NCBI RefSeq assembly: GCF_009745975.1
Contig: NZ_WHOL01000077.1
Coordinates: 49,493 to 113,492, forward strand
Direction of reading: 5' to 3'
From: Actinokineospora pegani
Lineage (GTDB): Bacteria; Actinomycetota; Actinomycetes; Mycobacteriales; Pseudonocardiaceae
DNA: 64,000 nucleotides
Shown in pieces: positions 45,258-61,589 of the stretch (position 1 is its first letter; the number at the start of each line of letters is the position of its first letter). The notes below the pieces were generated by a model. It was given only the letters and a program-made list of their open reading frames with translations, did not search any database and was not told the origin of the DNA. The translations under genes and the position numbers were made by a program.

Positions 45258-45884
45258 GTGCCACATAGCAACCAAAGCGTCCACGGGTCAGTGCAGGTCC
45301 GGTCGACGGCGCGAGTCAGCACAGACCAGGTGTTGATTTCCCGAGTCGGTCTGCACATCCCGCCCAGCCTCACCTACACCGGTTGGGAGCGCACCGGTGC
45401 GCAGTTGGCCCGCATCTTCGATTCCTCGGCCTGGTGCCTGGGGGACTGGCTGGTCTGCGGCCAGGAGAACTACGCGGACCGCTATGTCCGGGCCGTCGAA
45501 GCCGCCGGTCTCGACTACCAGACCCTGCGAAACTACGCCTGGGTCGCCCGCCGGTTCCCGCTGGAGCGGCGTCGGGAACTGCTGAGTTTTCAACACCACG
45601 CCGAGGTCGCCTCCCTGGTCCCGGGCGAACAGGACCGCTGGTTGGACCGCGCTGAGAAGGGGAGGTGGTCGCGCAACGAGCTGCGCCGTTGGCTGCGCGG
45701 CACCAGGTTGGACAAGAAGGCCGCCGCTGAGGCGACCTCGATGATCCCGAGGGTCGCCGTCGCCGCCGAACGGGTCGAGCGCTGGCGGGCCGCCGCGCAA
45801 CGGGCAGACGACCAGTTGGAGAACTGGATGGTGCTGATCCTGGACCGGGCGGCCGAGGATGTACTGAGCACGGAATCGACGTGA
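45258..45884 (+). CDS. LmbU-family pathway regulator
   Basis: This 208-residue protein matches the LmbU/NovE/CloE/HrmB group. The diagnostic core is WCLGDWLVCGQ, DYQTLRNYAWVARRFP, RRELLSFQHHAEVASL and SRNELRRWL. LmbU is an unusual DNA-binding activator of lincomycin biosynthesis; relatives are found in aminocoumarin and hormaomycin clusters. GTG 45258 is chosen because AGGGGGAT lies just upstream and because the resulting length fits the family. Longer open sequence upstream is Arg-rich and non-coding. It heads the salicylate/cyclitol gene cluster and is the likely activator of it. Confidence 0.88.
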   Translation: MPHSNQSVHGSVQVRSTARVSTDQVLISRVGLHIPPSLTYTGWERTGAQLARIFDSSAWCLGDWLVCGQENYADRYVRAVEAAGLDYQTLRNYAWVARRFPLERRRELLSFQHHAEVASLVPGEQDRWLDRAEKGRWSRNELRRWLRGTRLDKKAAAEATSMIPRVAVAAERVERWRAAAQRADDQLENWMVLILDRAAEDVLSTEST

Positions 45885-45940
45885 CGACGGCTCGGTCGCG
45901 CGGGATCTCCGCCGACCTCGATCACTGGCCGCCGTGCCGT

Positions 45941-45950
45941 CCCGCCGGCG
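45941..45950. promoter_or_regulatory. LmbU-like site 2
   Basis: CCCGCCGGCG sits in the 180-bp gap between the regulator and the SDR gene, embedded in the 12-bp palindrome CCCGCCGGCGGG. It contains CGCCGGCG, the core reported for LmbU binding in the lincomycin cluster, as I recall it. Confidence 0.4.
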
Positions 45951-46064
45951 GGGCGAGCGCGCCGAGTGGTCGTGGACCCATGAGGACTCCGGTCGCCCGG
46001 GGGCGGGTGGCCGCGAGACGAACCAGCACGACTAGTGCCGCGCAAGCGGTGGAGGGCATTGACG

Positions 46065-46841
46065 ATGACGACGAAGACAACGCGCGTTGCTGTGGTGACC
46101 GGAGCGGGGAGGGGAATCGGCCTGGCGATCGTGCGCGCGCTGGTCGAGGACGGGTACACCGTCGTCGCGGGCAGCCGGACTGTCACCGCGGGGCTCAAGG
46201 AACTCTCGCCGGACGCGATCGAGGCCGACCTGGGCCACCCCGATGAACCGGCCCGCGTCGTGCGGCACGCGCTCGACCAGCACGGCGGCATCGACCTGCT
46301 GGTCAACAACGTCGCGGGCACCTCGACGCCGCCCGGTGGCTTCCTCCAGCTCGACGACGACGCCTTCCTGCACACCTTCAACGTGACGTTCATGTCGAAC
46401 GTCCGCGCGACCCGCGCCGCGCTGCCCAGCCTGCTCGAACGCCGCGGCGCGGTCATCAACATCAGCTCCGTCAACGCGAAGCTGCCCCAGCCGCGCCTGG
46501 TCGCCCAGTCCGCCGTCAAGGCGGCGGTGTCGAACCTCGGCAAGGCGCTCGCCGAGGAGTTCGGCGGCCAGGGCCTGCGGGTCAACACCATCTCCCCCGG
46601 CCCGGTGTGGACCGACCTGTGGACCGCCCCCGGTGGACCGGGCGAGCAGATCGCCAAGCGGGCAGGCGCCACGCTGGACACCTTCAAGGACCGGCTGCCC
46701 GCCACCGTTGGCACCTCGACCGGCGAGTTCGCCCACCCGGAGGAGATCGCGGAGCTGGTGGTGTTCCTCGCCTCCGGCAAGGTGGCCAACATGAGCGGCG
46801 CCGACCTGGTGATCGACGGCGGGATGATGAAGACAGTCTGA
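46065..46841 (+). CDS. SDR-family protein lacking the catalytic tyrosine
   Basis: This 258-residue protein has the cofactor motif TGAGRGIG (12-19), NNVAG (81-85), INISS with Ser134/135, Lys152 and a C-terminal SGADLVIDGG. The position four residues before Lys152, where classical SDRs have Tyr, is Gln148 (AQSAVK). It may therefore be a non-reducing relative, a dehydratase/epimerase-type enzyme or catalytically weak. ATG 46065 is set by GGAGGG upstream. It lies directly behind the LmbU gene and before a bidirectional terminator, so it probably belongs to the cluster. Confidence 0.85.
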   Translation: MTTKTTRVAVVTGAGRGIGLAIVRALVEDGYTVVAGSRTVTAGLKELSPDAIEADLGHPDEPARVVRHALDQHGGIDLLVNNVAGTSTPPGGFLQLDDDAFLHTFNVTFMSNVRATRAALPSLLERRGAVINISSVNAKLPQPRLVAQSAVKAAVSNLGKALAEEFGGQGLRVNTISPGPVWTDLWTAPGGPGEQIAKRAGATLDTFKDRLPATVGTSTGEFAHPEEIAELVVFLASGKVANMSGADLVIDGGMMKTV

Positions 46842-46855
46842 TCCGGAGACCGGAC

Positions 46856-46898
46856 GCCGACAAGGCCCCTTTCGACTGTCGAGAGGGGCCTTGTCGGC
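46856..46898. terminator. Strong bidirectional terminator hairpin
   Basis: A perfect 15-bp stem pairs GCCGACAAGGCCCCT (46856-46870) with AGGGGCCTTGTCGGC (46884-46898) around a 13-nt loop. It lies between the convergent SDR and exporter genes, 14 bp and 10 bp from their stops, and should end both transcripts. Confidence 0.9.
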
Positions 46899-46908
46899 AT
46901 CCAGCCGC

Positions 46909-48369
46909 TCAGGCCTTGGTCGCCTCCGCGGGGTGGCGCGCGCTCACGAAAAGGGCGGACGCGATCAAGCCGATCAGCAGCACCAGCGCGGGCAGGTACA
47001 TGGAGCGGCTGAGCGCGGTGCTCATGTCGTCCAGCAGCGCTTCCCGCTGATCAGGTGGCGGGATGACGGCCGTGGAGCCGCCCTCGCCGATCGGGCCCGC
47101 CTGCAGTCCCTGGGCCGCGATGAGTGCCGACAACAGCGCGCTGATGCCAGCCGAGCCGAGGGTGAAGCCCAACTGGCGGGTGGTCAGGAACACGCCGGAA
47201 CCGGCCCCCGCCTGCTGGGGGGACAGGCTCCGGATGGCGTTGGCCGCGAGCGGCGCCCAGACGAAGGCGTTCGCCACACCGGCGACGGCGCCGATGACCA
47301 CGAGCAGCGCGATGGACGAGTCCGGCGTCATGGACCACGCGAAGCCGAACAAGGTCGCGGAGAACAGGGCGAATCCGGTGGTCGGGATGACCCGCGGCGG
47401 CAGCCGGTCGGCGATCTTGCCGATGAACGGCGCCAGCACGCCGGTCAGCGTCGCCATCGGTGCGAACACCATCGCCGATTCCGTTGGTGACATGCCCCGC
47501 ACCTGTTGCAGGTAGAAGTAGGCGACTACGAACAGGCCGTTCACCGCGGCCGCCATCGAGGTCACCGCCACGTTGGACAGCGTGAAGTTTCGGTCCTTGA
47601 ACAGGCTCAGCGGCACCAGCGGCTCCCGCGTGTTGCGGGACTGGTTGAGCACGAACAGGGCCAGCACGGCCACACCGCCGAGGATCAGCGCCCAGATCAC
47701 AACGTCCCAGTCCCGCGCGTTGCCCTCCTGGATGCCGAACACCAGCAGGAACATGCCAGCAGCGGACAGTGCCATTCCGGCGACGTCGAACTTGTGCTCC
47801 CTGGTCTCCAACGCCGGCACGAGCCAGGCCGCCAGCACGAACGCGACGACACCGACGGGCACGTTCACGTAGAAGATCCACTGCCAGCCCTGCCAGTCCA
47901 CCAGCACGCCGCCCAGGATCGGGCCGACCAGCGCCGCCAGCCCGGCCGCGCCGCCCCACAGGCCCATCGCCGCGCCGCGCTTGTCCGGCGGGAATGTGCG
48001 GGTGATCACGGCCATGGTCTGCGGTGTCATCAGCGCCGCGCCGAGCCCCTGCGCCACCCGCGCCGCGATCAGCATCTCGATGCTGGTGGACGCCCCGCAC
48101 CACAGCGAGGCGCCGGTGAACACCACCAGGCCGACCAGGTAGACGGTTTTGGGGCCGAAGCGGTCGCCGAGCCTGCCGGTGATCAGCAGCGGCACGGCGT
48201 AGGCCAGCAAGTAGGCGCTCGTGGCCCAGATGGCCTGCGAGAGGTCGGCGTCGAGGTCCGCCATGATCGCCGGGTTGGCCACCGCGACGATGCTCATGTC
48301 CAGCAGGAGCATGAAGAAGCCGACGATGACCGCGTAGAGCGCGGGCCACGGGTTGGCTTGTGTTGGCAT
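46909..48369 (-). CDS. MFS drug/proton antiporter, 14-helix DHA2 (EmrB/QacA) type
   Basis: This 486-residue polytopic protein has the DHA2 N terminus VGFFMLLLDMSIVAVANPAI, motif A GRLGDRFGPK, and motif C-like GPILGGVLVD in helix 5. Hydrophobic segments are consistent with 14 helices. ATG 48367-48369 follows AGGAGAACGCAAGC. It shares a divergent promoter region with the first biosynthetic gene of the cluster, so it is a good candidate for product export and self-resistance. Confidence 0.9.
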   Translation of the reverse strand: MPTQANPWPALYAVIVGFFMLLLDMSIVAVANPAIMADLDADLSQAIWATSAYLLAYAVPLLITGRLGDRFGPKTVYLVGLVVFTGASLWCGASTSIEMLIAARVAQGLGAALMTPQTMAVITRTFPPDKRGAAMGLWGGAAGLAALVGPILGGVLVDWQGWQWIFYVNVPVGVVAFVLAAWLVPALETREHKFDVAGMALSAAGMFLLVFGIQEGNARDWDVVIWALILGGVAVLALFVLNQSRNTREPLVPLSLFKDRNFTLSNVAVTSMAAAVNGLFVVAYFYLQQVRGMSPTESAMVFAPMATLTGVLAPFIGKIADRLPPRVIPTTGFALFSATLFGFAWSMTPDSSIALLVVIGAVAGVANAFVWAPLAANAIRSLSPQQAGAGSGVFLTTRQLGFTLGSAGISALLSALIAAQGLQAGPIGEGGSTAVIPPPDQREALLDDMSTALSRSMYLPALVLLIGLIASALFVSARHPAEATKA

Positions 48370-48542
48370 TGCTTGCGTTCTCCTGTCTGAGGAGTGGGCG
48401 GTCCACCGCTGCGCAGCGGGCACCACGCCCCCCCCGAGTCCACCACCTCGGCCGCACTGCGACCAGGGTAGGTGCAGTGTGGTCGGTCGTTGACCCGGAG
48501 CGGGCTGTCCGGCGTTGCATCGGGTGTGCGGCCGCGGGTTCG

Positions 48543-48570
48543 TTGTCAAAGCATTTATCTGGAGTATTTG
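48543..48570 (+). promoter_or_regulatory. Candidate sigma70-type promoter for the biosynthetic operon
   Basis: TTGTCA (48543-48548) and TATTTG (48565-48570) are spaced by 16 bp. They precede the LmbU-like site and the DAHP synthase gene, giving an untranslated leader of about 150 nt. Assignment is by eye. Confidence 0.35.
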
Positions 48571-48571
48571 T

Positions 48572-48581
48572 CCCGCCGGCG
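48572..48581. promoter_or_regulatory. LmbU-like site 3
   Basis: CCCGCCGGCG begins 2 bp after the candidate -10 hexamer in the divergent exporter/biosynthesis region. It is identical to site 2. Activation from this position would be unusual, so it may act on the exporter direction or on another promoter. Confidence 0.4.
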
Positions 48582-48727
48582 AGACAGGCGGGTCGTAGGA
48601 CCTTTTCAGATGTGCGGTGTTCTGATAGATTTCACCATCGAATCCCGCCGCACGAATGTGGCCGAATCTGTTCGGGTCTTGCGGAGTTCAGTATTTGACT
48701 TCCGCCGCTCATGTTAAGCGGTGTGCG

Positions 48728-49963
48728 ATGGTCGAACGCGTCAGGTCGGATATGGAGGCCTGGGCGGACCTGGCTCATATGGGGGAGTTTCTGGTGCAGG
48801 GTGATCTTTTAGTGCTATCGGCCGAATCGGCACCGCAACAGCCGGAATGGCCCGATCGCCGGCACGTGCGAGTGGTGCGCGAGGTGCTCGCCGGTCGACC
48901 GCCCCTGGTCCGCGCGGACGAGGTCCACGCGTTGCGCTCGCAGGTGGCCAGGGCCGCGGCGGGCGAGCTGCTGGTCGTGCAGGCTGGCGATTGCGCCGAG
49001 GACCCGGCCGAGTGCGTGCCGGGTCACCTGTGCCGCAAGATCGCCCTGCTGGACGTGCTGGCCGGTGTGTTGAACACGACCACTGGCAAGCCCGTGCTGC
49101 GGGTGGGTCGGATCGCGGGCCAGTTCGGCAAGCCGCGGTCCAGGGCGACCGAGCGCGTCGACGGCCTCGACCTGCCCGTCTACCGGGGTCACATGGTGAA
49201 CAGCCCGGAACCGGACCCCCTGCTGCGCCTGCCGGACCCGGAGCGGCTGCTCGCGGGCCACGACGCGGCGAGCGCGGCCGCGGGCTACCTGCGGCTGCGC
49301 AACAGCGAGCGGCTGCCGTCGGCGCAGTCGTGGGTCTGGACCAGCCACGAAGCGCTGCTGCTGGACTACGAGCTGCCGATGCTGCGGCAGACCGATGAGG
49401 GCGGGCGGCTGCTCGCGTCGACGCACTGGCCGTGGATCGGCAACCGCACCAACCAGGTCGACGGCGCCCACACTGCCCTACTGGCGACGGTCAGCAACCC
49501 GGTCTCCTGCAAGGTCGGGCCGACCATGACGCCGCAGGAGCTGGTCGCGCTCTGCGAACGCCTCGACCCGTTCCGCGCACCCGGCAGGCTTACCCTCATC
49601 TCCCGGATGGGCGCCGCGGTCGTGGCCGAGCGGCTGCCGCCGCTGGTGGCCGCGGTCCGCGAGGCGGGCCACCCGGTCGGCTGGCTCGTCGACCCCATGC
49701 ACGGCAACACCGTGAGTGGTCCGCACGGGCTGAAGACGCGGTTCGTGGACACCGTGGTCCAGGAGGTCGTCGAGTTCCAGCGCGCGGTGGCAGTGGGGCG
49801 CGGGGTAGCTGTCGGGCTGCACCTGGAGACCACGCCGGACGACGTGACGGAATGCGTCGCGAATGCTTCGGCGATCGACCGAGTCGGCGACAAGTTCACC
49901 AGTTTGTGTGATCCGAGGCTCAATCCGGAACAAGCCGTGGAAGTGGTTTCATCCTGGCGCTAG
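48728..49963 (+). CDS. Class II DAHP synthase, short (PhzC-like) form
   Basis: This 411-residue enzyme has AGDCAEDP, VGRIAGQFGKPRS, PWIGNRTNQVDGAH, CKVGPTMTP, DPMHGNT and ETTPDDVTEC. Compared with the DAHP synthase at the left end of the window, it lacks an internal stretch of roughly 45 residues before WTSHEALL. That is the region which carries regulatory helices in the long enzymes, as in PhzC-type specialised enzymes that escape feedback. Codon 28 is TTA (48809-48811), a rare codon that requires the bldA tRNA. ATG 48728 is assumed; ATG codons 9 and 18 are alternatives. It supplies chorismate for salicylate. Confidence 0.9.
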   Translation: MVERVRSDMEAWADLAHMGEFLVQGDLLVLSAESAPQQPEWPDRRHVRVVREVLAGRPPLVRADEVHALRSQVARAAAGELLVVQAGDCAEDPAECVPGHLCRKIALLDVLAGVLNTTTGKPVLRVGRIAGQFGKPRSRATERVDGLDLPVYRGHMVNSPEPDPLLRLPDPERLLAGHDAASAAAGYLRLRNSERLPSAQSWVWTSHEALLLDYELPMLRQTDEGGRLLASTHWPWIGNRTNQVDGAHTALLATVSNPVSCKVGPTMTPQELVALCERLDPFRAPGRLTLISRMGAAVVAERLPPLVAAVREAGHPVGWLVDPMHGNTVSGPHGLKTRFVDTVVQEVVEFQRAVAVGRGVAVGLHLETTPDDVTECVANASAIDRVGDKFTSLCDPRLNPEQAVEVVSSWR

Positions 49964-49969
49964 CAGTCG

Positions 49970-51367
49970 ATGATGAAGCCCTTTTCCTCTTATCGTGTCA
50001 GCAGAATCGAGGTCGCTGGAATGAGCAGTGCGGAATGGGTGCGATACGTCGAGACGACGATCGAGGTGGCGGGGGACCCGCTCGACCTGTCGGCGCGATT
50101 GGCCGAGGCGGGCCCGCACGGCGAATTCGTCGTCTACGAGAAGGACGGGCACTGGTCCTACGCGGGCGGTGTGCTCGCCGACATCACCCTCGACCGGGAC
50201 GGGGCCCGGCTCGGCGGCGTGCGGACCGCTCGCCTGCCCTGGAGCGACCAGCCGTTGCGCCAGGTGCGCGACCTGCTCGCGATGGTGCCAGTCCGGGGCT
50301 GGCGCGCGTACGGCACCGCGGCGTTCGAGTTGTCCTACGCCAAGCACGGCGATCGCGCCCACGTTGACGACCAACCCCTGCTGCACCTCGTGGTGCCCCA
50401 GAGCGAGGTGCGCATCAGTTCCGGCCGGGCGCACGTGCGCTCCACCAACCCGGACACCCTGACCGCGCTCGTCGGCCTGCTCACCAGCCCGGTCGAGGAC
50501 CGCCCGCGGGACGCGGTCGCGCTCGACGTCCGGCAGGTCGGTCGGGACGAGTACCGCGCCACGGTCGCCGCCGCGGTCCGAGACATCGCCGACGCGCGGT
50601 TGCAGAAGGTGATCCTGTCCAGGATCGTGCGGGTCGACGGCGAGATCGACCTGACTGGCACCTACGTGCTCGGTCGCCGCGAGAACAATCCGGCGCGGTC
50701 CTTCCTGCTGCGGCTGGGCGGCTTGGAGGCCGCCGGGTTCAGCCCCGAGATCGTCGTCAGCGTGACCGAGGACGGTGCGGTGGTCAGCCAGCCGCTCGCG
50801 GGCACCAGGGCGCTCACCGCGGACGCGGCGACCAACAGCCGCCTGCGCGGGGAACTGCTCTCGGACGAGAAGGAGATCTACGAGCACGCGATCTCGGTGA
50901 AGGTCGGCAACGACGAGTTGCTCACCGTGTGCGAGCCGGACTCCGTGGGTGTGCACAACCTGATGACGCTGGAGGAGCGCGGCAGCGTCCAGCACATCGC
51001 CTCCAGGGTGACCGGCACGCTCTCCGCCGGGCACGACGCCTGGGACGCCTTCGCCGCGGTCTTCCCCGCCGTGACCGCCTCCGGGGTGTCGAAGGAGGCC
51101 GCGTACGAGGCGATCCGCGGCTACGAGACCGAGCGCCGCGGCCTCTACAGCGGCGCCGTGCTGACCGTGGACGAGTCCGGGGCGATGGACGCGGCGCTGG
51201 TGCTTCGGACCGTGTACCGGCAGCACGGGCGGACCTGGCTGCGCGCGGGCGCGGGCATCGTCGGCCAGTCCCAGCCCGACCGGGAGTTCGAGGAGACCTG
51301 CGAGAAGCTCGACAGCGTCGCCCGCTTCCTCGTCGCCGCCGTGGTCAAGGCGGAGGTGCACGCGTGA
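49970..51367 (+). CDS. Salicylate synthase (MbtI/Irp9 type)
   Basis: This protein of about 465 residues belongs to the chorismate-utilising family and converts chorismate via isochorismate to salicylate and pyruvate. Its C-terminal half follows MbtI closely: PLAGTRALTAD, SDEKEIYEHAISVK, FPAVTASGVSKEAAYEAI, RGLYSGAVLTVDESGAMDAAL and WLRAGAGIVGQS, then EFEETCEKL. It lacks the PAGTLSGAPK of anthranilate synthases. Start is ATG 49970, 6 bp after the previous stop; ATG 50021 is an alternative. No separate isochorismate pyruvate lyase is present, as expected for this type. Confidence 0.9.
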   Translation: MMKPFSSYRVSRIEVAGMSSAEWVRYVETTIEVAGDPLDLSARLAEAGPHGEFVVYEKDGHWSYAGGVLADITLDRDGARLGGVRTARLPWSDQPLRQVRDLLAMVPVRGWRAYGTAAFELSYAKHGDRAHVDDQPLLHLVVPQSEVRISSGRAHVRSTNPDTLTALVGLLTSPVEDRPRDAVALDVRQVGRDEYRATVAAAVRDIADARLQKVILSRIVRVDGEIDLTGTYVLGRRENNPARSFLLRLGGLEAAGFSPEIVVSVTEDGAVVSQPLAGTRALTADAATNSRLRGELLSDEKEIYEHAISVKVGNDELLTVCEPDSVGVHNLMTLEERGSVQHIASRVTGTLSAGHDAWDAFAAVFPAVTASGVSKEAAYEAIRGYETERRGLYSGAVLTVDESGAMDAALVLRTVYRQHGRTWLRAGAGIVGQSQPDREFEETCEKLDSVARFLVAAVVKAEVHA

Positions 51368-52407
51368 GGGTCGTCGACGTCCACCTCTCCGGGATCGGCA
51401 GCGTCGTGCCGGACCTGGTGAGCACCGAGCACGCGGTGGCGCAGGGCTGGTACGACGAGTCGGCCCGCGCGGCCTCGGGCATCCTGTCGGTCGCGGTGGC
51501 CGGCTCGACCCCCGCACCGGACATGGCGGTCGACGCCGCGAACCTCGCGATCCGGCGCGGCGGCCACGCCGCCGACGACTTCGGCGTCCTGCTGCACAGC
51601 CACGCCCACCACCAAGGCCCGGACGCCTGGTCGCCCGCGCACTACATCCTGAACAACACCCTGGACCGCCCGATCCCGGCGATCGAGGTCAAGCAGGGCT
51701 GCCTCGGCGGGCTGGCCGCGCTCGAACTCGCCGCGACCCGACTGCTGGCCAACCCCAGCCACCCAGCCGCGCTGGTCACCGCCGCGGACAACTTCTCCAT
51801 CCCGCTGGTCGACCGCTGGCGGACGTCCTCGGCTTTCGTGCTCGCCGACTCCGCCGCCGCGGTGACCGTGTCCCGCACCGGCGGGTTCGCCCGGCTGCTG
51901 GCGATCGGCTCGGTCTCCGACGCCAGGATGGAGGCGCTCGACCGGGGCCGCGACCCGCTGTTCCCACCCGGGGTGACCGTGGGGCAGCCGCTGGATTTCG
52001 ACCAGCGTCGAGAGCACATGCGCGAGCGGTGGGCGCAGGGTGTCACCCCGCCCATCGGCTACTTCGGCGACAAGATCACCGCCGTCACCGAGTCGGTGCT
52101 CGAGGAAGCGGGCCTGACCTTCGACCAGGTCACCAGGGTGGCGCACCCCGGCTTCGGCTGGGATTCGCTGGAGACGATGTTCCTCGACCCGCTGCTGATC
52201 GACGCCGAGCGCGGGGTCTGGGACTACATCAGGCGGATCGGGCACGCCGGGGTGACCGAGGTGTTCCTCGGGCTCGAGCACCTGTGGACCTCCGGTCAGG
52301 TCGGACCAGGCGACCACGTGCTCCTGGTGTCATCCGGGGCGGGCGCGTCCATGGGCGCCGCTGTCGTCGAGGTGCTCACCGCCCATCAGCCAGGGACGGA
52401 GGTCTGA
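51364..52407 (+). CDS. KAS III-like acyltransferase
   Basis: This 347-residue thiolase-fold protein has the nucleophile Cys in VKQGCLGGLAALEL and a His in VAHPGFGWD. The usual KAS III Asn position lies in LLVSSGAGASMGA and is not conserved. That C-H pattern without the condensing Asn is typical of KAS III-like enzymes such as CerJ, ChlB3 and DpsC that transfer acyl groups instead of elongating chains. Here it most plausibly moves salicylate from the aryl carrier protein onto the aminocyclitol nitrogen. Start GTG 51364 overlaps the salicylate synthase stop. Confidence 0.82.
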   Translation: MRVVDVHLSGIGSVVPDLVSTEHAVAQGWYDESARAASGILSVAVAGSTPAPDMAVDAANLAIRRGGHAADDFGVLLHSHAHHQGPDAWSPAHYILNNTLDRPIPAIEVKQGCLGGLAALELAATRLLANPSHPAALVTAADNFSIPLVDRWRTSSAFVLADSAAAVTVSRTGGFARLLAIGSVSDARMEALDRGRDPLFPPGVTVGQPLDFDQRREHMRERWAQGVTPPIGYFGDKITAVTESVLEEAGLTFDQVTRVAHPGFGWDSLETMFLDPLLIDAERGVWDYIRRIGHAGVTEVFLGLEHLWTSGQVGPGDHVLLVSSGAGASMGAAVVEVLTAHQPGTEV

Positions 52408-52408
52408 C

Positions 52409-54037: not shown

Positions 54038-54038
54038 C

Positions 54039-54296
54039 ATGGAAACCAATTCCCGGTCGACCGCGCAACCACCCGGCGAACAGGAGTTGCGCGAACTCCT
54101 GGCGCCGCTGGTCGACGCACGGCCAGAGGACATCCCCGGTGACGCCAACCTGATCCTGCTGGGGATGAGCTCGATCGACATGATGCGGCTGGTCGGCCGC
54201 TGGCGCCGGGCGAAGCTGCCGGTCGTGTTCGAGGAGTTGGCGTCAGCGCCCACGCTCAACGGCTGGCTCGCACACCTCGAAGGGCTGCGCCCGTGA
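54039..54296 (+). CDS. Aryl carrier protein
   Basis: This 85-residue carrier has LLGMSSIDMMRLVGRWRR, where the second Ser of SSI is the phosphopantetheine site (canonical DSI; here the Asp is Ser). The rest of the fold, VVFEELASAPTLNGWLAHL, matches ArCP domains of siderophore synthetases. It stands between the AMP ligase and the first cupin and overlaps the latter by 4 bp. It holds salicylate as a thioester. Confidence 0.9.
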   Translation: METNSRSTAQPPGEQELRELLAPLVDARPEDIPGDANLILLGMSSIDMMRLVGRWRRAKLPVVFEELASAPTLNGWLAHLEGLRP

Positions 54297-54709
54297 GCGC
54301 CCACGCGGTGGTCGCCGACCTCGACCAGGCGTCCGTCGTGCACGGCGTGCACGGGGCGGACGGCGCCTCCGAGTGGAAGGCGTTCGCCCGCCGACACGAC
54401 CTGTTCGGGGCCTGGGAGGCCGTCGAGTGGGCCGCGCTGCCGCCGGGTGGGATCAGCGGCGAGCACGTGCACACCCGGACCGAGGAGCTGTACTTCATCA
54501 TCTCCGGCACCGGCGTCATGCTCCTCGACGGCCGCGAGCACCCGGTGCGCGCGGGCGACCTGATCGTGAACGGCATCGGCACCAGGCACGGCCTCGTGAA
54601 CGTGGGCGACGACCGGTTGACCTGGCTCGTCATCGAAGTGGTCGGACCGCTGATGGCGGCTGTCTACTCCGAACACCAGAAGCTGACCGAGAGTGGGGGA
54701 CGACGATGA
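54293..54709 (+). CDS. Cupin, type A of the duplicated cupin module
   Basis: This 138-residue single cupin has a complete metal site: His58 and His60 in GEHVHTRTEE, Glu64 and His99 in GTRHG. It aligns with the first half of the bicupin encoded at 55423, sharing WKAFARRHDLFG-type, WEAVE, LPPGG and LVIEV segments. Its role in the cyclitol pathway is unknown. Dehydration, isomerisation or dioxygen chemistry are possible. GTGA overlap with the carrier-protein stop. Confidence 0.85.
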   Translation: MSAHAVVADLDQASVVHGVHGADGASEWKAFARRHDLFGAWEAVEWAALPPGGISGEHVHTRTEELYFIISGTGVMLLDGREHPVRAGDLIVNGIGTRHGLVNVGDDRLTWLVIEVVGPLMAAVYSEHQKLTESGGRR

Positions 54710-55032
54710 GCAACGCCGTGGTGATCAACCTTCGCGAGGTGCGGGAGATCGACGCGCGCGTGTTCCTGAGCGGGCCGCTCGGCCGGGTCCGGCTGCCGCA
54801 GCTCGAGCCGGGCCAGCGGGAGGAGTTGGTCGCCGATGACCAGGAGCACACCTTGTTCGTCGTGCGCGGCAACGGGACCGCGACGACCGGGGCGACGGCC
54901 GTCCCGCTGCGCGCCGGTGTCTCGCTGACCCTGCCGCTGGGCAGCAGCGTCGCGGTCGAGGCCGGCGACGAGGGCCTGGAGCTGTTCATCGCCAGCCTGG
55001 TCACACCGCAGGCCGCCGAGGTGTCCCGGTGA
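54706..55032 (+). CDS. Cupin-like protein, type B (metal site lost)
   Basis: This 108-residue protein resembles the second half of the bicupin at 55423: VVINLREVREIDARVFLSGPLGRVRLPQL, QEHTLFVVRGNGTA. It lacks the HxH motif (GQREELVADDQEHTLF), so it likely binds no metal and may be a structural or regulatory partner of the type A cupin. It overlaps both neighbours by 4 bp. Confidence 0.75.
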   Translation: MSNAVVINLREVREIDARVFLSGPLGRVRLPQLEPGQREELVADDQEHTLFVVRGNGTATTGATAVPLRAGVSLTLPLGSSVAVEAGDEGLELFIASLVTPQAAEVSR

Positions 55033-55430
55033 TCGTCACCAACGCGAGCGGGCTGAGCCGGACGCAGGACGGCAACGCCTGGCGCTGCCTGGCCCGTCGC
55101 GGCATGCTGCACAGCGAGTGCGAGTCCGTCGACTACCTCCGGCTGCCGCCGGGCGGCGCGCGCGACGTGCGCGGCAGCGACGGTGTCGACGCGGTCTGGT
55201 TCGTGCTCGCGGGCGAGGGGGAGTTCGACGGCGGGGCTGGGGCCCCCGTCCTGCTGCGCCCCGGCGACCTGCTCCTCTGGTCCGGGGGATCGGGCGGGAC
55301 GGTGCGCAACCACCGCACCGACCACCTCGAACTGCTCGCCCTGGCGGTGCTGCCCACGGCGGTGACCGACCGGCTCCCCGCACGCGTCCCGCTGATCCCC
55401 GCGCCCGTGACCGGAGCCGACCATGGCTGA
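55029..55430 (+). CDS. Cupin-like protein, type C (first copy)
   Basis: This 133-residue cupin-fold protein begins VIVTNASGLSRTQDG and has WRCLARRGMLHSECESVDYLRLPPGG and VWFVLAGEGEF. The metal-binding histidines are absent. It is a clear paralogue of the protein encoded at 56130. Start GTG 55029 overlaps the type B stop. Function is unknown. Confidence 0.75.
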   Translation: MIVTNASGLSRTQDGNAWRCLARRGMLHSECESVDYLRLPPGGARDVRGSDGVDAVWFVLAGEGEFDGGAGAPVLLRPGDLLLWSGGSGGTVRNHRTDHLELLALAVLPTAVTDRLPARVPLIPAPVTGADHG

Positions 55431-56133
55431 CCGGCTGGTCGTCACAACCCTGGACGAGCTGTCCGAGGTCTACGAGATGCACGGTGGCGAGAAGGTGGCC
55501 AGGTGGAAGTGCCTCGCCCGGCGCAACAACCTGTTCGGGCCGTGGGAGGCGGTGGAGTGCTCGTTCCTGCCCCCGGGCGGGGCCAGCGGCGTGCACCTGC
55601 ACAGCCGGACCGAGCAGTTCGACTACGTGGTGTCCGGCTCCGGCGTGATGACGATCAACGGCGTCGACCACCCGATCACCGCGGGAGACCTGCTCACCAC
55701 CTGCCTCGGCACCAGGCACGGCATCCGCAACGCCGGTGACACCGACCTGGTCTGGCTGGTCATCGAGGTGTCCGGCCCGGGGATGGCGCCGGGCGTGCCC
55801 GCACGCGACACCAGCGGCGACCGCGCCGAGGTGATCAAGCTCGGCGCGGTCCGCGACGTCGACGCGCTGGGCTACCTGTCCGGGCCGCTGCGCCGGGCCC
55901 GACTGCTCCAGCTCGACCAGGGGCAGACCGAGACCTTGGCGGCGGACGAGCAGGAGCACGTGCTCTTCACGCTCAGCGGCACGGGGTCCGCGGCGTCGGC
56001 GTCCACCACCGTGCCGCTGTCCTACGGGGTGTCGGTCGGGGTGCCGTTCCTTGGTTCCACCACGATCGAGGGCGGGCCTGGCGGCCTGGAGTCCTTCGTC
56101 GTCAGCCTGGCCGTCCCGGGAGGTGCGCGGTGA
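55423..56133 (+). CDS. Bicupin: fused type A and type B domains
   Basis: This 236-residue protein joins in one chain the two domains that are separate genes at 54293 and 54706. Residues 1-125 keep the complete metal site at the same numbering as the type A protein (His58, His60, Glu64, His99). Residues 130-236 match type B (LSGPLRRARLLQLDQGQ, QEHVLFTLSGTG). The fusion strongly suggests that types A and B form a complex. It overlaps the type C gene by 8 bp. Confidence 0.85.
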   Translation: MADRLVVTTLDELSEVYEMHGGEKVARWKCLARRNNLFGPWEAVECSFLPPGGASGVHLHSRTEQFDYVVSGSGVMTINGVDHPITAGDLLTTCLGTRHGIRNAGDTDLVWLVIEVSGPGMAPGVPARDTSGDRAEVIKLGAVRDVDALGYLSGPLRRARLLQLDQGQTETLAADEQEHVLFTLSGTGSAASASTTVPLSYGVSVGVPFLGSTTIEGGPGGLESFVVSLAVPGGAR

Positions 56134-56516
56134 TCGTCTCCAACGCCGGTGACGGGCTCACCCGGACCGTGGACGGCAGCGCCGGGGACGCGGTCTGGCG
56201 GTGCCTCGGGCGCCGCGGGATGTTGTTCAGCGAATGCGAGTCCTTCGACTTCGTCCGACTCGCACCGGGGGCCGTCCTCGACGAGCGCGGCCGCGACGAC
56301 ATCGAGGAAGCCTGGTTCGTGCTCCGCGGCGGCGCCACGTTCGTCCGGGACGGCCACGACCCCCTGCTCGTCGGCGAGGGCGAGCTGGTCCTCGGCTCGC
56401 ACGCGGCGGGCGGCCGGTGGCACAACGCGGGCGACTCCCCGGTGGAGATGTTGTTCCTCGCGCTGATGCCCGCCTCGGTCAGCAGCCGGTTGCCGACGCG
56501 CACGCCGTCGGACTGA
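56130..56516 (+). CDS. Cupin-like protein, type C (second copy)
   Basis: This 128-residue paralogue of the 55029 protein has VIVSNAGDGLTRTVDG, VWRCLGRRGMLFSECESFDFVRL and AWFVLRGGATF. The metal-binding histidines are again missing. With the bicupin it forms the second copy of an A-B-C module. GTGA overlap with the bicupin stop. Confidence 0.75.
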   Translation: MIVSNAGDGLTRTVDGSAGDAVWRCLGRRGMLFSECESFDFVRLAPGAVLDERGRDDIEEAWFVLRGGATFVRDGHDPLLVGEGELVLGSHAAGGRWHNAGDSPVEMLFLALMPASVSSRLPTRTPSD

Positions 56517-56533
56517 GGGGGGAGGAGAACCGC

Positions 56534-58114
56534 ATGAGTCACCAGCGCATCGAGGTGGACGTCCTCGTCGTGGGGTCGGGGCCGGTGGGCGCGACCTTCG
56601 CGCGCACGCTCGTCGAGGGCGGTCGCAGTGTCCTGGTGGTCGACGCCGGGCCGCAACTGTCCCGCCGTCCGGGCGAGCACCTGAAGAACCACTTCTCCTA
56701 CCAGCACAGCCACGAGCGCTTCGGCGCCCTGGTCCGCGGGCACCTGCACCCGGTGTCGAGCCCCGGAGGCGGCGCGGACGAGCGCGACCGGCTGATCAGC
56801 CTGGACGCGGGTGTCGCCACGTACGCGGTGGGCGGGATGGCCACCCACTGGACCGGCGTGACACCGCGGCACCACCCGACCGTCGAGCTGTCCGACGCCA
56901 TCGCGGCCACCGAGTGGGACCAGCTCTACGACGACGCCGAGGCGCTGCTCGGCACCGGGACCGACCTGACCGCGCACGCCGTCTCGCACCAGGTCGTGCT
57001 GGACGCGCTCACAGCCGAGTACCCGGAGCTGCCCGAGGGGCACGGGGTGCGGCACCTGCCGATGGCGGCGCGGCGGCGCACCGACAACCCCCGGCTCGTG
57101 CGGTGGACCGGCGCCGACACCATCCTCGGCCCGCTCGCCGACGGCGACCGCGACGGGTTCGAGCTGCGCGAGCAGCACCTGTGCCGCAGGCTCGTGCCGT
57201 CGGCGGACGGCTCGCGGATCGAGTACGCCGAGGTCGAGGACCACCTCACCTGGCGGACGCTGCGCGTCGTGGCGGACACCTACGTCGTCGCCTGCGGGGC
57301 CGTGCTCACCCCGCAACTGCTGCACGCCTCCGGTGTCCGCCCGCCCGCGCTCGGCCGCTACCTCACCGAACAGCCGGTCGCCTTCTGCCAGATCGTGCTC
57401 TCCGACGAGCTGGTCGACAGCGTCGCGGCCGACGAGCGCTTCGCCGAGCAGGTGGCCGCCCACCGGGCGGCCCACCCCGGCGACCCGCTGCCCATCCCGC
57501 TAGACGACGCCGACCCCAACGTGTGGATCCCGGTGTCGGCAGACCGCCCGTGGCACTGCCAGATCCACCGCGACCTGCCCTACGCCGACATGGCGCCGAA
57601 CCGGGGGGTCGACACTCGGCTGGTGGTCGACCTGCGCTGGTTCGGGCTCGTCGACCCGAGGCCGGGGAACCGGGTCCTGTTCTCCGACACCGAGCAGGAC
57701 GGCTTCGGCCTGCCGCGGCCTGCCTTCGAGTTCTCGCTCAGCGAGCAGGACCGCGAACGGCAGCACCGGATGATGGCGGACCTGCGGCGGGCCGCGTCCG
57801 CGCTCGGGTCGTACCTGCCTGGGGCCGAGCCGCGGTTCATCGTCCCCACCCTCCCGCTGCACATCGCGGGCACCGCCCGGATGGGCACCGACGCCGACAC
57901 CAGCGTGGTCGACCCCGGATCGAGGGTCTGGGGCGTGGACAACCTCTACCTCGGCGGCAACGGCCTCATCCCGACCCCGAACGCGAGCAACCCGACGCTC
58001 ACCAGCGTCGCGATGGCTCTGCGGGCGGCACGCGGGATTCTCGGCACCCAACACCCACTCACGGCAGGAAGGCGCGCAGATGAGCGGCCCGGGCTACTTG
58101 TTCCTCGGCGATGA
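56534..58114 (+). CDS. GMC-family (glucose-methanol-choline) oxidoreductase
   Basis: This 526-residue FAD protein has the N-terminal VVGSGPVGATFARTL dinucleotide motif, GGMATHWTGVTP (the GMC substrate/FAD loop), a C-terminal HIAGTARMGTD with the catalytic His, and NASNPTLTSVAMALRAA with the paired Asn. It resembles pyranose oxidase-type GMC enzymes and would oxidise a cyclitol hydroxyl to the ketone that the aminotransferase needs. A GMC oxidoreductase is known in the cetoniacytone cluster. Start ATG 56534 follows GGGGGGAGGAG. It overlaps the next gene by 35 bp. Confidence 0.9.
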   Translation: MSHQRIEVDVLVVGSGPVGATFARTLVEGGRSVLVVDAGPQLSRRPGEHLKNHFSYQHSHERFGALVRGHLHPVSSPGGGADERDRLISLDAGVATYAVGGMATHWTGVTPRHHPTVELSDAIAATEWDQLYDDAEALLGTGTDLTAHAVSHQVVLDALTAEYPELPEGHGVRHLPMAARRRTDNPRLVRWTGADTILGPLADGDRDGFELREQHLCRRLVPSADGSRIEYAEVEDHLTWRTLRVVADTYVVACGAVLTPQLLHASGVRPPALGRYLTEQPVAFCQIVLSDELVDSVAADERFAEQVAAHRAAHPGDPLPIPLDDADPNVWIPVSADRPWHCQIHRDLPYADMAPNRGVDTRLVVDLRWFGLVDPRPGNRVLFSDTEQDGFGLPRPAFEFSLSEQDRERQHRMMADLRRAASALGSYLPGAEPRFIVPTLPLHIAGTARMGTDADTSVVDPGSRVWGVDNLYLGGNGLIPTPNASNPTLTSVAMALRAARGILGTQHPLTAGRRADERPGLLVPRR

Positions 58115-59315
58115 AGAGAAGGCGCTGGTCACCCGTGCGCTGGACACCTGGCAGCTCAACCGGTACCGATTCGACGAGACCGCCGAGCCGTCCATGGTGT
58201 TCACCCTCGAGCGCGAGTTCGAGCAGCGCACGGGCGCGGCCCACTGCCTGGCGGTGAACAGCTGCACCTCCGCGCTGCTCACCGCGCTGGCGGCCCTGGG
58301 CGTCGGCCCGGGGGACGAGGTCATCGTCCCCGGCTACACGTTCATCGCCTCCATCGCCGCCATCGTGCACCGGGGCGCGGTCCCGGTGCTGGCCGAGATC
58401 GACGAGTCGCTGACCCTCGACCCCGAGGACGTGGCGCGCCGGATCACCCCGGCGACCAAGGCCATCCTCGCCGTGCACATGCTGGGAGCGCCTGCCGCGC
58501 TCGACGAGCTGCGCCGCGTCGCCGACGACCACGGCCTGTTCCTGGTCGAGGACGCCGCCCAGGCCACGGGAGGGCGGTACCGGGGCCGCGCCCTGGGCTC
58601 CATCGGCGACGCGGGCGCGTTCTCGCTCAACCTGTTCAAGATCATCACCAGCGGCGACGGCGGGCTGCTGACGCTCGCCGACGACACCGCCTACGAGCGC
58701 GCCTTCGCCTTCCACGACCACGGTTTCAAGCCGCTGCGGCACGGCATCGCCGACGCCGACTCGCTGTTCGGGCTGAACCTGCGGATGCACGAGCTCACCG
58801 GCGCCGTCGCGCTCGGCCAGCTACGCAAGATCGATAGAATCCTGGCGAGGCTGCGCGAGCAGAAGACCGCACTGGCCGAGGCGATCGGCGAGCTGCCCGG
58901 CGTCGAGCGAAGGCGGATCAACGACCCGGACGGCGAGTGCCACTCCTTCTTCGTCCTGCGGTTCGCCACCGCAGGCGCGGCGCGGGCGGTGGCCGCCAAG
59001 TTGGGCACCTCCACGCTCATCGACTCAGGACGCCACTACTACGGGAACATGCCCCAGCTGACCAGCAGGCGCATGCCCACCGCGGCCGAGCACCCCTTCG
59101 GGTGCCCGGCACACCCCACCGCGCAGCGGTACGAGCCGCACATGCTGCCCCGCACCGACGACATCCTCGGCCGGTCGGTGGCGTTGTCGGTCGGGGTGGT
59201 CGACGCCTACCTCGGTGCCGGAGTCGGCATCACCCCGCTCTCGACGCCCGAGGAGATCGCGGCCGTTGCCGCGGCAGTACAGACAGCCGTCAACGAAGTG
59301 GTCGGGAGGCCATGA
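58080..59315 (+). CDS. DegT/DnrJ/EryC1-family PLP aminotransferase
   Basis: This 411-residue enzyme has PGYTFIAS, VEDAAQATGG with the PLP-N1 Asp, and FSLNLFKIITSGDGG with PLP Lys187. Related enzymes transaminate keto-sugars and keto-cyclitols (L-glutamine:scyllo-inosose type). Here it most likely installs the amine of a C7N aminocyclitol. Start ATG 58080 follows GGAAGG. Its stop overlaps the cyclase start by 4 bp. Confidence 0.92.
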   Translation: MSGPGYLFLGDEEKALVTRALDTWQLNRYRFDETAEPSMVFTLEREFEQRTGAAHCLAVNSCTSALLTALAALGVGPGDEVIVPGYTFIASIAAIVHRGAVPVLAEIDESLTLDPEDVARRITPATKAILAVHMLGAPAALDELRRVADDHGLFLVEDAAQATGGRYRGRALGSIGDAGAFSLNLFKIITSGDGGLLTLADDTAYERAFAFHDHGFKPLRHGIADADSLFGLNLRMHELTGAVALGQLRKIDRILARLREQKTALAEAIGELPGVERRRINDPDGECHSFFVLRFATAGAARAVAAKLGTSTLIDSGRHYYGNMPQLTSRRMPTAAEHPFGCPAHPTAQRYEPHMLPRTDDILGRSVALSVGVVDAYLGAGVGITPLSTPEEIAAVAAAVQTAVNEVVGRP

Positions 59316-60544
59316 CCATGCACCGCACAGAACCGGGCCTGGTGGAGACGGGCTCCCCGGCCCACCACTGGCGTGTCCAGGCCCACCTGCCGGTCGACTA
59401 CCAGGTCGAGATGACCAGCGGCGTCCTCGACCCGTCCAACCTGGCGCTGCTCGAAGCGGGCGCCACCGTCCGCGCCGACCGGCTACGCCGCTTCGTCGTG
59501 GTCGACGCCACCGTCTACGACCTCTACGGCGACAACCTGCGCAAGTACCTGGACCACCACAACGTCGAGTACAGCATCTGCGTCCTGCCCGCCTCCGAGG
59601 AGGCCAAGACCATGGAGTCGGTGTTCACGGTGGTGAACCGGCTCGACGCGTTCGGCATCTCCCGCAGGCACGAGCCCGTCATCGCCATCGGCGGCGGCAT
59701 CGTGCTGGACATCGTGGGCCTGGTCAGCAGCCTCTACCGCCGCAGCACCCCGTACGTCCGCGTCCCCACCTCGCTGGTCGGCCTCGTCGACGCCGGAGTC
59801 GGCATCAAGACCGGCGTGAACCACGGCTTCCACAAGAACCGCCTGGGTTCATACTTCGCCCCCGCCGTGGTGCTGCTGGACCGCGACTTCCTGGCCACTC
59901 TGGACGACCGCCACGTCAGCAACGGCTTGGCGGAGATCCTCAAGATCGCGCTGATCAAGGACGCGAGGCTGTTCCAACTCCTGGAAGACCACGCCGACCT
60001 GCTGCTGGCCGAACGGCTCACCGGCCAGACCCAGACCGGCGACGCCGTCGCGGGGGAGGTGTTCAGCCGAGCAGTCGGCGGCATGCTGGAGGAGTTGCAA
60101 CCGAACCTCTGGGAAAAGCAACTGGAGCGCGTAGTCGACTACGGCCACTCCTTCAGCCCCACCCTGGAGATGCGCGCCCTCCCAGCCCTGCTGCACGGCG
60201 AGGCCGTGACCATCGACATGGCGTTGACCACAGTCCTGGCGGAAGCACGCGGCCTGGTGTCCGCGCGGGACCGCCAACGGATCTTCCACCTGATGACCAA
60301 ACTCCGCCTCCCCACCTGGCACCCGCTTCTGGAAGCCGACCTCCTGGATCACGCCCTGCAAGAGACCGTCCGCCACCGAGACGGTCTACAACGCATGCCC
60401 ATCCCGCTCGGCATCGGCGCCGCCTGCTTCCTCAACGACCTCACCGCCACCGAACTCGCCAACGCGGCCCAGACCCTGCGCGACCTGCACCACCCGTCCG
60501 TCGCCGCGGTCGCCACCGACTCCCGACCGGACCCCGTCGCATGA
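59312..60544 (+). CDS. Sedoheptulose 7-phosphate cyclase (2-epi-5-epi-valiolone synthase family)
   Basis: This 410-residue member of the dehydroquinate synthase-like cyclases has the NAD motif IGGGIVLDIVGL, LVDAGVGIKTGVNHGFHKNRLG, and the zinc ligands Glu208 (NGLAEILK), His279 (DYGHSFSP) and His295 (LLHGEAV). KTGVN-HKNRLG and SFSPTLEMR are features of the EEVS/EVS branch, not of dehydroquinate synthase. It would cyclise sedoheptulose 7-phosphate to a valiolone isomer, the precursor of C7N cyclitols. Which isomer (2-epi-5-epi- or 2-epi-valiolone) cannot be fixed without alignment of active-site residues. Confidence 0.93.
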   Translation: MTMHRTEPGLVETGSPAHHWRVQAHLPVDYQVEMTSGVLDPSNLALLEAGATVRADRLRRFVVVDATVYDLYGDNLRKYLDHHNVEYSICVLPASEEAKTMESVFTVVNRLDAFGISRRHEPVIAIGGGIVLDIVGLVSSLYRRSTPYVRVPTSLVGLVDAGVGIKTGVNHGFHKNRLGSYFAPAVVLLDRDFLATLDDRHVSNGLAEILKIALIKDARLFQLLEDHADLLLAERLTGQTQTGDAVAGEVFSRAVGGMLEELQPNLWEKQLERVVDYGHSFSPTLEMRALPALLHGEAVTIDMALTTVLAEARGLVSARDRQRIFHLMTKLRLPTWHPLLEADLLDHALQETVRHRDGLQRMPIPLGIGAACFLNDLTATELANAAQTLRDLHHPSVAAVATDSRPDPVA

Positions 60545-61098
60545 CCCCCCAGCGAGGCATCCCGGGCGCGACCGCGGTCCACCACGTCGCCTACACCGTC
60601 CCAGACCTCAACCAGGCGATCGACTTCTTCGTCCAGGTCATCGGCGCCGACCTCGTCTACACCGAGGGCCCCATCAGGGACGACGACGGCGACTGGATGA
60701 CCCGCAAACTAGCCGTCCACGCCAAGGCCACCGCCCGAGTGGCCATGCTCCGCCTGGGCCCGGTCACCAACCTGGAACTGTTCGAATACACATCCCCAGA
60801 CCAGCGAACCCACCTCCCCCGCAACAGCGACTGGGGCGGCCACCACCTCGCCATCCACGTCACCGACGTCGACGAAGCCGCGGCCTACCTCAGATCCCAA
60901 CCAGGCGTCCGACTCCTGGGTGACCCGGAAACCATCACCGAGGGCCCCATCGCCGGAGACCGCTGGCTCTACTTCCTCACCCCCTGGGGCATGCAACTGG
61001 AACTCATCAACCTCCCCCCAGGGGCCCCCTTCGAACAACGAACCACCGCCCGCCTGTACCACCCCACCACTCCCTGGTCCAACCAAGGAACCCCATGA
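60541..61098 (+). CDS. VOC-superfamily epimerase, CetB-like
   Basis: This 185-residue vicinal-oxygen-chelate protein has the metal-ligand pattern HHVAYTV (14-15), NLELFEY (78-83), GGHHLAIHV (99-107) and GMQLELIN (150-156). Genes of this type follow the cyclase in C7N cyclitol clusters; CetB of cetoniacytone biosynthesis epimerises 2-epi-5-epi-valiolone. The 4-bp overlap with the cyclase supports the same role here. Confidence 0.85.
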   Translation: MTPQRGIPGATAVHHVAYTVPDLNQAIDFFVQVIGADLVYTEGPIRDDDGDWMTRKLAVHAKATARVAMLRLGPVTNLELFEYTSPDQRTHLPRNSDWGGHHLAIHVTDVDEAAAYLRSQPGVRLLGDPETITEGPIAGDRWLYFLTPWGMQLELINLPPGAPFEQRTTARLYHPTTPWSNQGTP

Positions 61099-61589
61099 CC
61101 CCCCAACCGCCCCCATTCCACATCCCCGCAGGCCAAGGCCCCACGACCTGGTTCGACGGCAACGTCTACACCACCAAGGCAAGCACCGAATCCACCAACG
61201 GGGCCATCTCCATCCTGGAATCCTCAATCCTCCCAGGAAGCGGCCCGCCCCTCCACGTCCACACCCGAGAAGACGAAGCCTTCTACATCCTGTCAGGCCA
61301 ACTGACCTTCACCATCGCCGACAACGAGTACGCCGCCAAGGCCGGGGACTTCCTCTTCGTCCCCCGAGGCACCCCGCACCGCTTCGAGAACGCCACCACC
61401 CACGTGGCCCACACCATCTTCATCTACACCCCTGCGGGCTTCGAGAAGTTCTTCCAAGAAGCAGGAGACTCCGCCGTTCCAGGTCTCCCGATCCCGAAGT
61501 GGGGCCACGCGGAGTTCCATCGAGCGGCGGAGATCGCCACTCGCTACGGCTGGGAGGGCCCCAGGACAGAGCAGGAGGCCGGCCGGTAG
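61095..61589 (+). CDS. Cupin (quercetinase-like), last gene of the cluster operon
   Basis: This 164-residue cupin has a complete metal site: His54, His56, Glu61 and His95 (PLHVHTREDEAFY, PRGTPHRFEN). It is not closely related to the type A cupins. Possible roles are epoxide or enone formation on the cyclitol ring, or dioxygenation, but none can be assigned. ATGA overlap with the VOC gene makes it the last supported gene of the run from 48728. Confidence 0.82.
   Translation: MTPQPPPFHIPAGQGPTTWFDGNVYTTKASTESTNGAISILESSILPGSGPPLHVHTREDEAFYILSGQLTFTIADNEYAAKAGDFLFVPRGTPHRFENATTHVAHTIFIYTPAGFEKFFQEAGDSAVPGLPIPKWGHAEFHRAAEIATRYGWEGPRTEQEAGR

Follow-up and report, generated by a model that had tools for sequence, protein, structure and literature searches.

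Gene organization of the block

We analyzed a 64,000-nucleotide window of the genome of Actinokineospora pegani (contig NZ_WHOL01000077.1, positions 49,493–113,492), in which a biosynthetic block of about 19 genes occupies window positions 43145–61589. The block appears to combine a C7N ring module with a salicylate donor module, and its product is probably an unchlorinated N-salicylyl C7N aminocyclitol resembling epoxyquinomicins C and D. These limits were chosen because relatives of the gene at its left end, which encodes a berberine bridge enzyme (BBE)-type oxidoreductase, occur at all 13 loci compared below. A cyclase scan of genome contigs revealed the block in colinear form, with protein identities of 64–91%, in Amycolatopsis decaplanina, Umezawaea beigongshangensis, and Streptomyces sp. 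ODS25, which excludes a chance origin.

The region 48728–61589 contains 15 plus-strand genes, with neighbors that overlap by at most 35 bases or lie at most 17 bases apart. Pfam domains found among their products are those of class-II 3-deoxy-D-arabino-heptulosonate 7-phosphate (DAHP) synthase, chorismate-binding enzymes, β-ketoacyl-acyl carrier protein synthase III (KASIII), AMP-binding and PP-binding proteins, glucose–methanol–choline (GMC) oxidoreductase, DegT, dehydroquinate (DHQ) synthase-like enzymes, and glyoxalase/vicinal oxygen chelate (VOC) proteins. Gene calls and domain searches recovered in place, on the plus strand, every enzyme named in a preliminary description of this stretch, which was right in substance. 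That description counted 14 proteins in the region instead of 15, and its inventory, sound for the genes it listed, left out the 6 cupins of the operon and the upstream BBE-type FAD oxidase.

The salicylate donor genes

The operon opens with a short class-II DAHP synthase (48728–49963, start uncertain; PF01474, 391 bits; best structure 6bmc, 437 bits). The next gene encodes an MbtI-type salicylate synthase (49970–51367; best structure MbtI 3rv8, 306 bits), which clears the curated equivalog cut-off of TIGR03494 (459 bits, cut-off 325). It is followed by a KASIII-like acyltransferase that we propose to be the salicylyl transferase (51364–52407; best structures 7vyu, 442 bits, and ChlB3 7eqi, 273 bits), a salicylate-type aryl-AMP ligase (52409–54037; best structure the salicylate-AMP ligase 5wm2, 629 bits), and an aryl carrier protein (54039–54296; PF00550, 32 bits). 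The stop codon of the carrier gene overlaps the start of the first cupin gene by 4 bases, an arrangement found in 5 of the 7 loci measured.

The active-site residues were compared across the 8 loci that carry these genes. In the AMP ligase, Cys241 and Leu338 stand where the dihydroxybenzoate ligase 1md9 has Ser240 and Val337; Cys241 is present in all 8 loci and Leu338 in 7, with Ile in the Streptomyces locus G003. We take this Cys/Leu pair to be a signature of salicylate ligases. Against the dihydroxybenzoate ligase model TIGR02275, the enzyme scored 637 bits, below the cut-off of 724. An oddity of the ligase, shared by all 8 loci, is a Phe in place of the His that directly precedes a conserved Asn in the 4 ligases compared. 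The KASIII-like enzyme has Cys113 and His294 in all 8 loci.

The proposed ring-forming genes

The cyclase is a DHQ synthase-like protein (59312–60544) without a C-terminal cupin domain in the window. Its best structural match is PDB 4p53 (named “Cyclase”), at 435 bits compared with 253 bits for 5tpr, and it shares with 4p53 a Leu, an Asp, and a His where 5tpr has Glu, Ala, and Thr. The 3 residues are kept in all 13 loci. These positions presumably discriminate between types of cyclase.

The oxidoreductase encoded at 56534–58114 does belong to the GMC family, as previously described, and is more closely a pyranose-oxidase-like enzyme (TIGR02462, 478 bits, below the cut-off of 545; best structure 9fl2, 430 bits). 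Three residues known from pyranose oxidases are retained, the flavin-attachment His and a catalytic His/Asn pair, and the His/Asn columns are kept in 13 of 13 loci; covalent flavin binding by the former and catalysis by the latter 2 are presumed roles. The enzyme is a candidate counterpart of CetL, the pyranose-oxidase-like enzyme of cetoniacytone-type clusters. A DegT-family aminotransferase (58080–59315; PF01041, 258 bits) has its putative pyridoxal phosphate lysine in all 13 loci. The VOC protein (60541–61098; PF00903/PF13669) has a VOC domain with the His/Glu/His/Glu positions, and we propose it to be a CetB-like epimerase.

The cupin set

Cupins account for 6 of the 15 operon genes, 5 of them at 54293–56516 and 1 at 61095–61589. 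We designate them A1 (54293–54709; PF07883, 61 bits), B1 (54706–55032; 18.7 bits), C1 (55029–55430; 25.6 bits), the fused A2-B2 (55423–56133; 66 bits), C2 (56130–56516; 26.4 bits), and D (61095–61589; 72 bits). B1, C1, and C2 fall below the PF07883 cut-off of 27.2, and B1 and C1 were assigned by alignment. The metal motif HxHx3E is found in A1 and A2, and HxHx4E in D, at all 13 loci. Alignment revealed no metal motif in B1 and C2 (13 of 13), in C1 (12 of the 12 called), or in a further cupin domain that is fused to the cyclase in 10 of the 13 loci; the window and loci G347 and G358 are without this fusion. A predicted model of A1 has the cupin fold (predicted local distance difference test score 79) and nothing more specific.

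We also inspected 20 more distant cyclase loci, in sets of 16 and 4, which are part of the cyclase matches listed for the 2 genome samples described below. Cupins A/B plus C accompany a VOC gene in 8 of them, and the other 12 have neither. These are not 20 independent events, since some of the loci (L051, L052, and L055) are closely related. Six of the 8 cupin-plus-VOC loci have a BBE gene no more than 8 kb away.

As a best guess, epimerized valiolone is the substrate of the cupins, which would work as a dehydratase or epoxidase. More specifically, and tentatively, they may form an undescribed hetero-oligomeric catalyst of C7 cyclitols, in which metal-bearing A subunits pair with metal-free B/C subunits for a dehydration or epoxidation that no other gene explains. 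Such a catalyst would be duplicated (A1-B1-C1 and A2B2-C2), mostly joined by the cyclase-fused cupin domain, and would mark a wider cyclase-plus-VOC class. No description joining 2-epi-5-epi-valiolone and cupins was found in the open-licence literature. The conserved set offers a concrete place to seek the dehydration and epoxidation steps of C7N biosynthesis.

Related loci carry 2 predicted acyl systems

A cyclase of at least 74% identity is encoded in 11 of 390 genomes of the family to which the window belongs, its own genome included, and the next best match has 58%. A class-level sample of 394 genomes added G430 (cyclase identity 69%). Together with the Streptomyces locus G003, these make up the 13 loci, that is, the window (G000) and 12 other genomes; L005, L006, and L007 duplicate the loci of G101, G388, and G003 and were counted once. 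Cupins A1, B1, A2B2, C2, and D, the GMC enzyme, the aminotransferase, the cyclase, and the VOC protein are present in all 13.

Eight loci (G000, G106, G101, G100, G044, G388, G003, and G430), which we designate salicyl-type, carry the salicylate synthase, the KASIII-like enzyme, the ligase, and the carrier protein. DAHP synthase is present in 7 of them; it was not found in the stretch of G430 examined, where the other 4 of the 5 module genes occur. The remaining 5 loci (G099, G347, G358, G160, and G069) have none of the salicylate-module genes, and in 4 of these 5 an arylamine N-acetyltransferase (NAT) gene stands beside the core, or 2 genes away in the case of G099. These cluster NATs are 76–77% identical to the query, which is the NAT of the fourth locus, G160, and the remaining NAT matches in the 13 genomes lie in unrelated places with at most 60% identity. 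None of the 13 loci was found to hold both the salicylate module and a cluster NAT (8 salicyl-type, 4 with NAT, and 1 with neither). At E ≤ 1e-15, no NAT was found in the window genome or in G430, and at E ≤ 1e-50, no salicylate synthase was found in 4 of the 5 non-salicyl genomes; the one in G099 has 50% identity and lies on a different contig. Among 399 sampled relatives, the KASIII-like gene occurs at 86% identity or more in 5, all salicyl-type, and at 55–56% in 2 others.

In both the concatenated core tree and the outgroup-rooted cyclase tree, a single clade holds the 5 non-salicyl loci (support 99 and 93); it is sister to the salicyl-type G388 and nested among the salicyl types. A single event in which acetate took the place of salicylate would fit this topology, and the ring pathway can apparently carry acetate instead of salicylate in these relatives. 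The donor genes were inherited together with the core: across the 8 salicyl-type loci, donor-gene and core trees agree in topology, and support is low at a single node (42 and 72).

The non-salicyl G099 locus lies near a type I polyketide synthase of 1823 residues by Pfam (L044:14268–19739, minus strand), near which a small thioesterase-like gene was noted by eye; the pair resembles an enediyne cassette. At L062:9866–15254, a different cyclase (54% identity) has a salicylate synthase-like gene (49%) and, by eye, a P450-like gene nearby, and is perhaps another cluster of the salicylate-plus-C7 kind.

Genes upstream of the operon

Four further genes complete the block. The BBE-type FAD-linked oxidoreductase gene (43145–44863, minus strand; PF01565, 73 bits; PF08031, 66 bits) has an uncertain start at 44734 or 44863, and diverges from a gene of the LmbU family of transcriptional regulators (45258–45884, plus strand; NF038070, 226 bits, above the cut-off of 125). 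BBE identities are 70–84% in the 7 other salicyl-type loci and 54–56% in the 5 remaining loci. An LmbU gene lies within the examined surroundings of 11 of the 13 loci, and LmbU control of the cluster is plausible only. The short-chain dehydrogenase/reductase (SDR; 46065–46841, plus strand; PF13561, 148 bits) has 77–97% identity in the 7 other salicyl-type loci and 51–53% in the other 5. In G106, G101, and G100 it is 96–97% identical, the highest value of any block gene there (the second highest is 91%, for DegT), hinting at strong constraint or a later exchange. A major facilitator superfamily (MFS) transporter (46909–48459, minus strand; PF07690, 218 bits; start uncertain, 48369 in the gene call) has counterparts of 77–84% identity in 5 of the 7 other salicyl-type loci. 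Between the MFS and DAHP synthase genes of G106, G101, G100, G044, and G388, an Rrf2-like regulator gene was noted by eye; the window and the 7 other loci yielded none in the stretches examined.

A search of the 8 salicyl-type genomes with PF04820 placed halogenase genes within or immediately next to 2 of their loci, G003 and G430. The G003 gene lies between the SDR and DAHP synthase genes, the position of the MFS gene in 6 loci, and the G430 gene lies beside BBE and SDR. The 2 halogenases are 69% identical to each other, and the closest structure to that of G430 is RadH 8gu0, followed by 8zop, 3e1t, and CmlS. PF04820 also matches other flavoproteins and gives hits in 5 of 14 control genomes. 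Several salicyl-type genomes, moreover, have matches remote from the block, such as one in G101 that is separated from it by about 100 kb of the contig they share; therefore, only long matches inside the block were counted. The window genome contains no full-length flavin halogenase, its single match covering profile positions 2–62 (61 of 458), which bears out the earlier statement that no halogenase is present.

Proposed pathway and alternatives

The gene content, the conserved gene order, the active-site residues, the co-inheritance, and the separate occurrence of the salicylate module and the cluster NAT are observations; every reaction in the following pathway is inferred, as are the product, its amide bond, and its epoxide. 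In the first module, the cyclase, VOC epimerase, cupins, pyranose-oxidase-like GMC enzyme, and DegT aminotransferase, together with the BBE oxidase and the SDR, would convert sedoheptulose 7-phosphate to a C7N amino-cyclohexenone of the cetoniacytone/epoxyquinomicin type. In the second, the class-II DAHP synthase, salicylate synthase, AMP ligase, and aryl carrier protein would turn chorismate into salicylate and attach it to the carrier. After its own acylation on Cys113, the KASIII-like enzyme would then hand salicylate to the amine of the ring. The preliminary description had proposed the same unchlorinated salicylamide, which is supported by (i) the separate occurrence of the salicylate module and the cluster NAT; (ii) the halogenase genes at 2 of the 8 salicyl-type loci, as against the single short match in the window genome; (iii) donor genes in the order cbxABCD (described below); and (iv) the Cys/Leu pair of the AMP ligase at the Ser/Val positions of 1md9.

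Several points weigh against this pathway. No product has been observed, and no gene is tied to the epoxide. Locus G069 has the core and neither acyl system, so the swap is not perfect, and 6 of the 8 salicyl-type genomes hold other NAT genes (at most 55% identity) away from the block. Which way the swap went depends on rooting the cyclase tree with outgroups (nodes 87 and 96), and some nodes are weak (37 and 46 for the placement of G044; 35–65 for several outgroup nodes). The window genome encodes 2 further salicylate synthases (G000:C60:35730–37082 and G000:C84:3427–4689; 59% and 46% identity), which could cross-feed the pathway.

The remaining points against this pathway concern the transfer of salicylate. 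The KASIII-like enzyme has Glu299 at the position of ChlB3 Asp301, the third catalytic residue, in all 8 loci. Its relatives form esters and thioesters as well, the O-acyltransferase CerJ acting on a sugar hydroxyl and ChlB3 on a carrier protein (PMC9573744), and in nataxazole an amide arises only as a shunt from an ester (PMC7204872).

Salicylate could instead be attached to an oxygen of the ring system, such as that of the C7 hydroxymethyl group, with the amine free or otherwise substituted. KASIII-like O-acyltransferases such as CerJ speak for this reading, and the 6-methylsalicylate of pactamycin is an ester. We consider it unlikely: in orthologous loci an arylamine N-acetyltransferase-family gene seems to take the place of the salicylate module in the pathway, and the window genome has no such gene at the threshold given above.

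The proposed salicylamide could also be aromatized or rearranged late, to an aminohydroquinone or quinone amide, in place of the epoxycyclohexenone. The BBE oxidase and the pyranose-oxidase-like enzyme could oxidize a cyclohexenone further, yet the core is common to loci whose NAT recalls the cetoniacytone arrangement, and we regard this outcome as distinctly unlikely. It is highly improbable that the block holds 2 separate pathways, with the aryl genes serving a neighboring one for a siderophore or benzoxazole and an unrelated compound made by the C7N genes. The 4 donor genes do occur in a caboxamycin-like set on a Streptomyces plasmid (below), but in the window the genes overlap in a single run, the 8 loci, from several genera, keep their order and tree topology, and no amidohydrolase, 3-hydroxyanthranilate, or nonribosomal peptide synthetase domain was found among the window genes scanned.

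Comparison with known systems

No cluster with exactly this gene set was found in the accessible parts of the open-licence literature, in agreement with the preliminary description, nor was any report there pairing salicylate with a cyclitol cyclase, or salicylate synthase with an aminocyclitol. A cet-like gene suite was reportedly described in Frankia alni ACN14a by Wu et al. in 2009; its salicylate genes are not known to have been discussed.

The family appears to join a cetoniacytone-like core and a caboxamycin-like salicylyl donor. In the cetoniacytone A cluster of Actinomyces sp. Lu 9419 (MIBiG BGC0000283), likened here by description, CetD is a NAT-family N-acetyltransferase acting on the aminocyclitol (PMC11213898). 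NATs likewise flank 4 of our 13 loci, whereas the window has the salicylate module and the KASIII-like enzyme and no NAT; since no NAT-family gene was matched in the window genome at E ≤ 1e-15, we do not class the block as a cetoniacytone cluster.

The caboxamycin cluster of Streptomyces sp. NTK937 contains cbxA–D in that order and a class-II DAHP synthase, cbxF. According to the published report (PMC5481532), deletion of cbxA, B, D, or E abolished caboxamycin; single deletion of cbxC, F, G, H, or I did not, for which the authors invoke paralogues. The window resembles this cluster in having salicylate synthase, KASIII, AMP ligase, and carrier protein genes in the cbxABCD order. It differs in that (i) the DAHP synthase gene precedes the donor genes in the window and follows them in cbx; and (ii) the acceptor in cbx is 3-hydroxyanthranilate, with a ring closure involving an amidohydrolase, whereas the predicted acceptor in the window is a C7N cyclitol. 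A Pfam scan of the genes at 43145–61589 found no amidohydrolase or 3-hydroxyanthranilate genes. On a Streptomyces linear plasmid (L101, NZ_CP107856.1, 326938–351900), salicylate synthase, KASIII, AMP-binding, and carrier genes of 60, 57, 64, and 35% identity are followed by amidohydrolase and 3-hydroxyanthranilate-type genes, a caboxamycin-like benzoxazole set. The cbxABCD order and the plasmid set thus identify the window module as a known kind of salicylyl donor with a different predicted acceptor.

Epoxyquinomicins A–D were obtained from Amycolatopsis (producer strain A. sulphurea MK299-95F4), and the scaffold predicted here is alike; the likeness is to the compound, not to a cluster, and no epoxyquinomicin gene cluster was found in the accessible open-licence literature. 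Loci under one genus label include the salicyl-type G100, G101 (the Amycolatopsis decaplanina locus), and G106, as well as the non-salicyl G099 and G160. Epoxyquinomicins A and B are chlorinated, as opposed to the product predicted for the window with no halogenase, and the presence of a halogenase in some loci only fits both chlorinated and unchlorinated epoxyquinomicins. Epoxyquinomicin C was the template for the NF-κB inhibitor DHMEQ (PMC5877590). Molecules of this kind served in the design of an experimental anti-inflammatory drug. The block is a good candidate for the type of gene cluster that makes epoxyquinomicins. The family also offers natural evidence that the same cyclitol pathway is accompanied by an acetyl donor in some genomes and a salicylyl donor in others, and so a test bed for acyl-group swaps.

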